Source: Collimonas sp. OK242
GTDB taxonomy: Bacteria; Pseudomonadota; Gammaproteobacteria; Burkholderiales; Burkholderiaceae_D
Direction: 5' to 3'
Assembly: GCF_900107095.1 (NCBI RefSeq)
Contig: NZ_FNOR01000020.1
Location: forward strand, 1-64,000
Length of the DNA stretch: 64,000 bases
Within the stretch, counting starts at the first letter, position 1. Each line of letters starts with the position of its first letter. A program made the position numbers and the translations under genes. Below, in pieces: positions 12,095 to 14,550 of this stretch. Below the pieces are notes generated by a model. It was not told where the DNA came from. It saw only the letters and a program-made list of their open reading frames with translations, and searched no databases.

Positions 12095-13690
12095 TCACCT
12101 TCCCTGCCGGATGAAATCTACCGCCTTCTCGGCAATCATGATAGCTGGCGCGTTGGTATTGCCGCCGATTAGCGTCGGCATGATCGATGCGTCCACCACC
12201 CGCAAACCCCGGATGCCATGGACCTTCAAGGTCGGATCGACAACAGCGGCCTGGTCGACGCCCATCTTGCAAGTGCCGACCGGGTGGTAAACCGTATCGA
12301 CATAATTCTTCAACGCCGAGCGTATCTGTTCATCAGACTGCACATCTGCGGTGCGTATGTCACGCGTGCTGTAGCTGGCCAGCGCCGGTGCATCCAGCAA
12401 TTTGCGCGTCATCTTGAACGCATCCACCATGTCTTCCAGATCTTGCGGATGATCCAGGAACTTGGGATCGATCAGCGGCGCATCCTGCGGATTGGTATTG
12501 CGTAGGCGGACCTCGCCTTTGCTCTGCGGCCTCAGCAGACAAACGTGGCAGGAAAAGCCGTGGCCGAGATGCAGTTTTCGGGCATGGTTTTCAACGCAGG
12601 CCATGACGAAATGCAATTGCAGATTGGGCGCCGGCAAATCCGGCCGGGTTTTCAAAAAACCGCCGCATTCGGCAAAATTACTGGTGAGCATGCCACGCCG
12701 CTCGTGACGGAAGCGCCGCAGCTCCTTGAGCATGCGGACCGATCCGCTGGCCGAGATGCCGAAGGTATCCAGGCTGTCGGATTTATGGCAAAACACGAAA
12801 TCGGGATGGTCTTGCAGATTCTTGCCGACGCCTGGCAAATGATGTTGCACCTGGATACCTAGCTTGCGCAGCTCGGTGCCGTCGCCAATGCCCGACAACA
12901 TCAGCAGTTGCGGCGACTGGAAAGCGCCGGCGGCGAGGATCACCTCACGCCTGGCACGCAGCACCCGCAACTTGCCGTCCTGCCGGACTTCCACGCCGGT
13001 TACGCGTCCCTGCTCGATGATCAGGCGCTCGGCATAGGCGCCGGTTTGCACGCACAGATTGCTGCGTTGACCCATGTGCGGCATCAGGTAAGCGCGCGCA
13101 GCACTCCAGCGTTCGCCATTTTTCTGGGTAACCTGGTAAACACCCAATCCCTCCTGATGTTCGGCGTTGAAATCTTCGCTGAGCGGATAACCGGCCTGGC
13201 GTGCGGCTTCCAGGTAATGCAGATGAAGAGGATTGTCGGTGCGCAGATCGCTGACCCATAAAGGGCCGTCCTGACCATGCCAGGCATTGGAAAACCGTTC
13301 GTTGTGCTCTGACTTTTTAAAGTAGGGCAACACGTCGTCGAAGGACCAGCCGTTGTTGCCGAGCTCGGCCCAATGATCGTAATCGGAGCGATGGCCGCGA
13401 GTATAGACCATGGCGTTGATCGCCGACGATCCGCCCAGTGTCTTGCCGCGCGGCTGGTAGCCGCGGCGGCCGTTGAGTCCGGCCTGCGGCACGGTTTCGA
13501 AAGCCCAGTTGTTGAGCCGGGTCGGCACCATGGCAAGTGCGCCAACCGGCATCTTTACAGCCCAGCTATCGCCGCTGCCGCCCGCCTCCAGCAAACAGAC
13601 CGACAGCTCCGGATCTTCTGTCAGGCGGCCCGCCATCACGCTGCCGGCCGACCCGCCGCCCACCACCACAAAGTCAAACTCATCGTTCAC
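12095..13690 (-). CDS. GMC-family FAD oxidoreductase (alcohol/choline dehydrogenase type)
   Basis: A 531-residue flavoprotein. The FAD-binding motif FVVVGGGSAGSVMAGRL is at residues 7-23, and GMC signatures follow in GKTLGGSSAINAMVYTRG and AAGAFQSPQLLMLSGIG. The C-terminal active site contains TVYHPVGTCKMG (catalytic His) and GGNTNAPAIMIAEK. It oxidises an alcohol to an aldehyde and passes electrons to a quinone or other acceptor. Translation probably starts at the GTG at 13690, because GGGAGA lies six bases upstream and the FAD motif follows at the normal distance. The substrate is not determinable. Confidence 0.92.
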   Translation of the reverse strand: MNDEFDFVVVGGGSAGSVMAGRLTEDPELSVCLLEAGGSGDSWAVKMPVGALAMVPTRLNNWAFETVPQAGLNGRRGYQPRGKTLGGSSAINAMVYTRGHRSDYDHWAELGNNGWSFDDVLPYFKKSEHNERFSNAWHGQDGPLWVSDLRTDNPLHLHYLEAARQAGYPLSEDFNAEHQEGLGVYQVTQKNGERWSAARAYLMPHMGQRSNLCVQTGAYAERLIIEQGRVTGVEVRQDGKLRVLRARREVILAAGAFQSPQLLMLSGIGDGTELRKLGIQVQHHLPGVGKNLQDHPDFVFCHKSDSLDTFGISASGSVRMLKELRRFRHERRGMLTSNFAECGGFLKTRPDLPAPNLQLHFVMACVENHARKLHLGHGFSCHVCLLRPQSKGEVRLRNTNPQDAPLIDPKFLDHPQDLEDMVDAFKMTRKLLDAPALASYSTRDIRTADVQSDEQIRSALKNYVDTVYHPVGTCKMGVDQAAVVDPTLKVHGIRGLRVVDASIMPTLIGGNTNAPAIMIAEKAVDFIRQGR

Positions 13691-13859
13691 TATGCGTCTC
13701 CCGCCCTGGTTGTATTTATGCGTTGCAGATAGACTAGCCTGCCAGGCAACAAATTTAACAGTTACGGGATGATCACGCCATGTGGCGTATTAGAGCATTT
13801 GTTTCAATTACGCAAAATATTCAGCCGATTGCGCAAACGATGCGACCGACGCGCCAGAT

Positions 13860-14084
13860 TCAATGCGCTTTCGACATGACTACCAGCCATTTGCGAAATA
13901 GCAATATTTCCAAATGTCCGGCCTGGATGCCGGCATTGCATTCGACCACGGGATTGCTTCTGTAGAGGCGCTTGTAGAAATCGCGGCAGATGAACAATTC
14001 ACGCTTGCCGAAACGCATCAGGATTGAGGAAGGGGTAGACTCCATACCAAAGCGGGAGCCGGAGGTAATATCCAAGTTCGTCAT
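13860..14084 (-). CDS. uncharacterised 74-residue protein under a LexA box
   Basis: A small basic protein (about 11 Lys/Arg against 6 Asp/Glu) beginning MTNLDITSGSRFGMES, with a middle RELFICRDFYKRLYR and a hydrophobic EILLFRKWLVVM near the end. I recognise no family. It is the first ORF 48 bases downstream of a perfect LexA operator, so it is probably SOS-induced. The ribosome binding site is weak (GGAA about 12 bases upstream), and Met14 is a possible alternative start. No other gene follows it on this strand until the GMC gene, 170 bases on. Confidence 0.5.
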   Translation of the reverse strand: MTNLDITSGSRFGMESTPSSILMRFGKRELFICRDFYKRLYRSNPVVECNAGIQAGHLEILLFRKWLVVMSKAH

Positions 14085-14132
14085 GGCAGCAATTCCAATC
14101 TCGTTGAAGGGAAGTCCACTGTACCATAACTA

Positions 14133-14148
14133 CTGTATATGCATACAG
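14133..14148 (-). promoter_or_regulatory. LexA (SOS) box
   Basis: CTGTATATGCATACAG matches the proteobacterial LexA consensus CTGT-N8-ACAG exactly and is a near-perfect palindrome, extended to TACTGT...ACAGTA. On the minus strand it falls in the spacer of a plausible promoter (TTTACT, 17 bases, TTATGG) directed at the 74-residue ORF, the position expected for repression. Confidence 0.75.
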
Positions 14149-14241
14149 TAAAATGCGATGTGTCTGTTTTTAGTCACGCCGCAAGCCGGCCATCGGCACA
14201 ACTTGCGGGCACATGATTTACCGGTTCAACGCCGGCTCGAC

Positions 14242-14550
14242 TCAACGACGCCAGCCGCGATCATAGTCATGGTAACGATCATGCCAGCCGCGTCCGCGCC
14301 AGTAAGCCCGACCATAATAGCCTGGTGGATAATAACCTGGGGCGCCATACACCACGACCGGCGGCGGCTGCACATACACAGGCGGCGGTGCGTAATAGAC
14401 CGGCGGCGGGTTGTAATAAACCGGTGGCGGCGGGTAATACGCAGGCACACCGATATTCACCGACCAGTGTGCTCCAGCGAATGCCGGAGTTGCCGAAAAC
14501 ACGCCGACGGCAAGCAATCCAAGCAGGGCAACGCGCATGGTTTTTTTCAT
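14242..14550 (-). CDS. secreted Pro/Tyr-repeat protein
   Basis: A 102-residue protein. Residues 1-25 are a signal peptide (MKKTMRVALLGLLAVGVFSA then TPAFA). The mature part has repeats of the type PPPVYY (residues 40-66), then a Gly/Tyr/Arg/His-rich tail ending DRGWRR. Such short Tyr-Pro repeat proteins are common in betaproteobacterial envelopes and have no assigned function. The start is the ATG with the signal peptide, although the frame is open much further upstream through the neighbouring gene. Compare the protein at 40991-41407, which has a similar repeat tail. Confidence 0.75.
   Translation of the reverse strand: MKKTMRVALLGLLAVGVFSATPAFAGAHWSVNIGVPAYYPPPPVYYNPPPVYYAPPPVYVQPPPVVVYGAPGYYPPGYYGRAYWRGRGWHDRYHDYDRGWRR

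Follow-up and report, generated by a model that had tools for sequence, protein, structure and literature searches.

The locus

The window, that is, the whole stretch of 64,000 nucleotides of Collimonas DNA that was analysed, contains on its minus strand a reading frame of 74 codons which agrees in position and length with the one described in the initial annotation, the 16-base core of a putative LexA-type operator starting 64 nt before its ATG. The coordinates of the gene, of its 5' leader and of the elements assigned to the upstream region are compiled in Table 1.

Table 1. Features of the 74-codon gene and its upstream region (coordinates refer to the window)
Feature	Position	Strand	Basis
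74-codon gene for a small basic protein, predicted five-stranded beta, unnamed family	13860..14084	-	homologues, pN/pS, AlphaFold2
5' leader with the first ~22 codons, almost no variation at synonymous positions	14019..14108	-	14 Collimonas genomes
Predicted extended -10 TGGTACAGT	14118..14126	-	TGnTAnnnT pattern conserved after the box
Putative LexA-type operator TACTGTATATGCATACAGTA	14131..14150 (core 14133-14148)	.	motif scan and boxes of relatives
Mostly conserved block GCGTGACTAAAAACAGACAC	14160..14179	-	alignment of 14 Collimonas upstream regions

The putative operator and similar sites in the Collimonas genome

The exact CTGT-N8-ACAG palindrome on which the initial annotation was built is present as CTGTATATGCATACAG and is the sole exact site in the window. 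The occurrence of this core alone is within chance (0.42 sites expected per 64 kb, and at least one site in 34 of 100 shuffles), but the 20-mer TACTGTATATGCATACAGTA encompassing it has no mismatch to TACTGT-N8-ACAGTA and is far rarer than the 16-base core. Only three zero-mismatch sites occur in the 4.98 Mb assembly, the two besides TACTGTATATGCATACAGTA preceding an imuA-like gene and a radical-SAM gene, and the lexA and recA operators of the same genome, with two mismatches each, are further from this pattern than TACTGTATATGCATACAGTA. When up to two mismatches to TACTGT-N8-ACAGTA are allowed, sites are rarer (67 per strand) than those matching a reversed control (151); therefore, loose matches in the genome are regarded as noise and only close sites as informative.

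From the same genome we took eight stretches surrounding close sites (L172 to L179). The genes behind these sites include an imuA-like gene (L172), the radical-SAM gene (L173) and the genes for a DinB-type polymerase (L174), LexA (L176) and RecA (L177); L175 and L178 likewise have close sites, before a DUF4145 gene and the gene for a FAN1-type nuclease, respectively, and in L179 a weaker site precedes a further gene. The L172 gene is without a Pfam match, and we take it to be imuA-like from its similarity to genes in Undibacterium loci. The form of TACTGTATATGCATACAGTA is the one found before lexA, recA, imuA and dinB in this genome, as would befit an operator of the LexA regulon.

Several of these stretches hold further observations. 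The DUF4145 gene (L175:470-1123, minus strand) has its close LexA-type site 148 nt upstream and is possibly another uncharacterised SOS gene; the radical-SAM gene (L173:23-1180, minus strand) lies 13 nt behind its exact TACTGT-N8-ACAGTA site; the L178 site separates the FAN1-type nuclease gene from a YfbU-like gene in divergent orientation; and on the far side of the Collimonas imuA box, divergent from the imuA-like gene, there is a frame of ~100 residues (L172:1291-1593, plus strand) which may resemble a RelE/HigB-type toxin.

A predicted promoter element next to the operator

The initial annotation had placed the box in the spacer of a plausible minus-strand promoter. A promoter is indeed predicted here, and the placement was modified, the conserved element being an extended -10 about 4 nt past the box, with the box over the -35/spacer region. 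Of 78 members of the gene family, 69 show the pattern TGnTAnnnT with its start 3-5 nt past the box, at exactly 4 nt in 55 of them, as compared to 23 of 16000 random positions; the extended -10 is absent in the remaining nine. A standard sigma-70 scan returned nothing at this site, which fits a promoter devoid of a good -35. Considering that the extended -10 follows just after the box, LexA positioned on the box would be expected to cover the -35/spacer region. A scan of 13690-14260 for terminator-like sites yielded none.

Just upstream of the operator, and within an otherwise variable intergenic region in Collimonas, lies the block GCGTGACTAAAAACAGACAC, for which the question may be posed whether it represents an UP element or a further regulatory site. 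In 20 of the 78 members, a match to AAA[AC]C[CA]AC occurs in the 45 nt preceding the first box, a count made without a control.

The encoded protein

On comparative evidence the frame is a real gene under strong purifying selection, with a pN/pS of 0.034 (pS 0.32, pN 0.011) over 14 Collimonas genomes. The protein is 96-100% identical in 13 other Collimonas genomes, and a fourteenth, of 1.7 Mb, carries a broken copy. The description of the product as a small basic protein of no recognised family, under the control of LexA, is likewise supported: its pI is 9.78, homologues are present in relatives, the frame is under selection and the box is conserved alongside it. Over 78 members G26, R28, G56 and W66 are invariant, and M1, R24, E29, D35, R39, Y41, P45, G52, L61, L67 and A73 are nearly so.

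The AlphaFold2 model, generated with 78 sequences, shows five strands after a low-confidence segment made up of the first ~20 residues (mean pLDDT 72, pTM 0.53), and the protein is thus probably all-beta according to this model. With a GRAVY of -0.04 the window protein is neither tiny nor strongly hydrophobic. None of the 78 members matches any Pfam model at E values up to 0.1, PF03846 included; sequence searches found no credible family for the protein; and fold searches gave no convincing structural match, be it to a division inhibitor or to another protein. At the level of sequence, the family could not be linked to any described one.

Distribution of the gene

An absence of homologues, named in the initial annotation as an outcome that would speak against its reading, was not what was found. 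A profile built from 30 members matched 211 of the 294 genomes that were sampled from the family, and 24 of its 44 genera, both counts including a marginal match in G475 (E 6.2e-4) which represents one genus, has no box and is probably due to chance or a remnant. In an order-wide sample 12 of 399 genomes match, all 12 being within Oxalobacteraceae. A class-wide sample searched with a 78-member profile yielded 2 of 274, namely the genome of the window itself and one match with an E value of 2.9e-4, which spans 42 positions within a 278-codon frame and was judged to be a chance match.

A scan of named genomes returned 179 encoding stretches, the best 80 of which were kept and include Collimonas, Glaciimonas, Herbaspirillum, Noviherbaspirillum, Undibacterium, Duganella, Rugamonas, Massilia and Janthinobacterium. 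Most of the listed genomes have one copy and a few have two. Because members were collected by similarity, distant ones are under-sampled.

A mobile origin was considered and rejected, as no relative was encountered in phage, plasmid or IMG/VR collections. In the phage collections the window protein had a single match (E 0.7), L038 had none and two divergent members gave only E values of at least 2; the plasmids contained no relative of the L017 member used as query, and IMG/VR no confirmed relative of query A1. The best PHROGs match had an E value of 0.0023 and concerned one of the 78 members.

Conservation of the operator together with the gene

Among 128 loci, in which some genomes are counted twice, an exact box is present within 220 nt upstream of the gene in 103 and an exact or near box in 116, as compared to 14 exact boxes in the other 908,636 bases of the same loci. 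When only the 37 primary loci, representing 21 genera, are considered, 36 possess an exact or near box and every genus is covered, the exception being the broken copy (L016). For a non-redundant set, 115 distinct proteins were reduced to 80 at 93% identity. Within 300 nt upstream, 66 of these 80 have an exact CTGT-N8-ACAG, as compared to 3 among 1152 control windows drawn from those sequences; for an exact or near box the counts are 77 of 80 and 5 of 1152, a near box being defined as one which agrees at no fewer than 13 of 20 positions and retains CTG...CAG, a rule set after the Undibacterium sites had been viewed. A looser rule which extends to 340 nt raises the number to 78 of 80 through the addition of L147, where a pair of sites is located at -314 and -332.

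The two members of the 80 that are without a box are L016 and L038. The former, from the Collimonas genome of 1.7 Mb, has its frame interrupted by an internal stop and its box decayed, and that genome retains a LexA match, whereas the latter (L038:1458-1888, minus strand, in G028) is a diverged second copy amid small unannotated frames; the frame before it contains an IRVGRLEF stretch that looks similar. Other diverged copies, situated in different surroundings, do have an exact box (L168, L180, L181 and L182 in genus g15, and L170 in g27); four of these are second copies, whereas no further copy was found in the genome of L168.

Many members carry tandem boxes, with 24 spacings of 18 or 19 bp, of which 22 are exactly 19 bp. 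Further CTGT-N8-ACAG sites near Janthinobacterium genes resemble, by eye, inverted repeats or terminators.

Neighbouring genes and co-occurrence with LexA

The surroundings of the gene vary between genera: in a comparison of 29 of the 80 named loci, based on frames of at least 90 codons, the commonest neighbour cluster was present in 8 of the 29. Since the neighbours change from genus to genus, no partner gene is evident, and the box and the gene form the conserved unit. Of 37 genomes carrying the gene, 35 were found to encode LexA, the two misses being genomes that are 92% and 68% complete. A strong LexA match is also present in 16 of the 23 genomes of the family in which the same search showed no copy of the gene, so that the gene does not constitute a universal checkpoint.

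A probable single-gene SOS unit and its candidate functions

The regulatory core of the locus would be a single-gene SOS unit, consisting of a LexA-type operator and a promoter element over a gene under selection, and to this reading we assign a probability of roughly 0.85. Control by the SOS response is well supported by the comparison among relatives, from which we infer that LexA binds this site and that DNA damage induces the gene. In the undamaged cell, LexA would sit on TACTGTATATGCATACAGTA and cover the -35/spacer of a promoter whose extended -10, TGGTACAGT, follows 4 nt past the box; upon DNA damage, RecA filaments would bring about the self-cleavage of LexA and the promoter would open, whereupon the basic, probably all-beta protein of 74 residues would be made. 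This protein may then delay division, or another essential process, during repair, which is the job performed elsewhere by SulA.

A soluble checkpoint effector that delays division is our first choice of function, proposed tentatively and by analogy. It is put first because the gene is present in most of the sampled genomes of the family, its operators are strong or doubled, its product looks soluble and the SulA model (PF03846) has no match in the Collimonas genome. The classes brought up in the initial annotation, division inhibitors and toxins, are indicated by no match in sequence or fold. The E. coli gene sulA is tightly repressed through a near-consensus LexA box, and the near-consensus or doubled boxes described here suggest a similarly tight repression. 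SulA, which inhibits division during the E. coli SOS response, is an alpha/beta protein of about 170 residues. The proposed effector would resemble it in being soluble, under SOS control and preceded by a near-consensus LexA box over the promoter, but differs in that none of the 78 members matches PF03846 and that its 74 residues are predicted to be all-beta. Of 100 relatives, 20 match PF03846, 15 of them with scores that exceed the cut-off, and the open frames concerned are 132-376 codons long; as these matches are presumed to be ImuA-like, the presence or absence of SulA does not provide a clean test.

YneA, SosA and SidA are small membrane-anchored SOS division inhibitors, with which the present protein has in common that they are short, lineage-specific and under LexA; they are membrane-anchored, whereas here a hydrophobic anchor is not evident from the GRAVY value and the five strands of a medium-confidence model. 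DinI is comparable in size (about 80 residues) and in its SOS control, but it is acidic, whereas the protein described here is basic, has no predicted helix and is without a Pfam match. SosA is also mentioned in PMC6851548. In the excerpts of open-licence PMC literature that were consulted, no paper on this gene or on the SOS regulon of Oxalobacteraceae was apparent, Herbaspirillum seropedicae RecA being studied in PMC4957752 and PMC6472873, and PMC7739468 being concerned with HrpB.

The gene could alternatively encode an SOS-regulated accessory of error-prone repair, which would help or restrain the ImuA-ImuB-DnaE2 mutasome or RecA, for example by binding DNA. This is a possibility that we consider somewhat less probable than a checkpoint function, and it was ranked close behind the latter because of the closeness to imuA in some loci and because the protein is basic. 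The mutasome is itself LexA-controlled, and in 12 loci (six from Undibacterium, four from MAGs and two from other genomes) the gene and an imuA-like gene are divergently oriented, each side having its own box, with a gap of 199-430 nt in 11 of these loci and of 1681 nt in one. The left half of the gene-side box is CTGA in all 12, and the same form occurs on the imuA side in 7 of the 12, so that CTGA looks like the version of the site belonging to that lineage. The pI and the conserved arginines R24, R28 and R39 would also suit such an accessory, and a place next to imuA fits a mutasome helper no less than it fits a checkpoint.

However, the other compared loci do not show this adjacency, although it may be missed in the many which have only 1.5 kb of flank, and the neighbourhood varies across the 29 named loci; in the Collimonas genome of the window, the imuA-like gene sits on another contig; and the 78 members are without a Pfam match. 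A common SOS region does not require a common function.

A constrained 5' leader in Collimonas

Over the 14 Collimonas genomes, pS amounts to 0.068 in codons 1-25, as compared to 0.42 and 0.46 further along the gene, and the adjoining GMC oxidoreductase gene has a value of 0.41 in its codons 2-25, obtained on a slightly different count. A further constraint at the level of DNA or RNA therefore seems, from these substitution counts, to act on the leader and the first ~22 codons. An alternative reading frame as the cause of this frozen 5' end was rejected, as one Collimonas sequence of the alignment has, by eye, a stop in it.

The frozen stretch allows for the gene being an SOS-induced toxin or growth regulator subject to an additional brake at the RNA level, on the model of TisB or DinQ, since the near-freezing of the leader and first codons, in which the neighbouring gene does not share, suggests a second control at the nucleic-acid level. 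We hold this to be unlikely. The stretch is a feature of Collimonas: in eight groups from elsewhere, with 2 to 15 sequences apiece, the dip is either weaker, reaching about 2.8-fold at the most over the first ten codons, or absent; the leader is less structured than its shuffles (z +1.59), no Rfam family matches it and no second copy of it was found in the genome; and the product has neither the tiny size nor the strong hydrophobicity of such a toxin.

That the palindrome is a chance occurrence or serves another gene, the frame being no gene, accords with one exact CTGT-N8-ACAG per 64 kb and is nevertheless refuted, to the point of being extremely improbable, by the comparison among relatives, in which box and frame are kept in each of the 21 genera to which the 37 primary loci belong and in 78 of the 80 non-redundant members, the pN/pS is very low and the two stay paired while the neighbours change, a joint conservation which raises the observation above chance and is the opposite of the box without a conserved frame that the initial annotation had named as evidence against itself.

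Implications for the SOS response of Oxalobacteraceae

SOS regulons share a core of repair functions, and what varies from lineage to lineage is the effectors that halt division or contain the damage. To our knowledge, little has been learnt about such effectors except in a small number of model bacteria. The comparison of sequences strongly supports the view that the gene described here is LexA-controlled and lineage-specific. In its fullest form, our reading is that of a lineage-specific SOS checkpoint protein with a small beta fold of its own, which would perform the job of SulA in Oxalobacteraceae and would in Collimonas be subject to an additional nucleic-acid-level control through its leader; as a whole, we consider this combination rather doubtful. 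What the comparison brings forward is a small gene that keeps its LexA-type operator across at least 21 genera as its neighbours change, in a family member whose genome has no match to the SulA model. As this switch is present in nearly all of the relatives compared, the gene is probably a real but unstudied part of the DNA-damage response of these soil bacteria.
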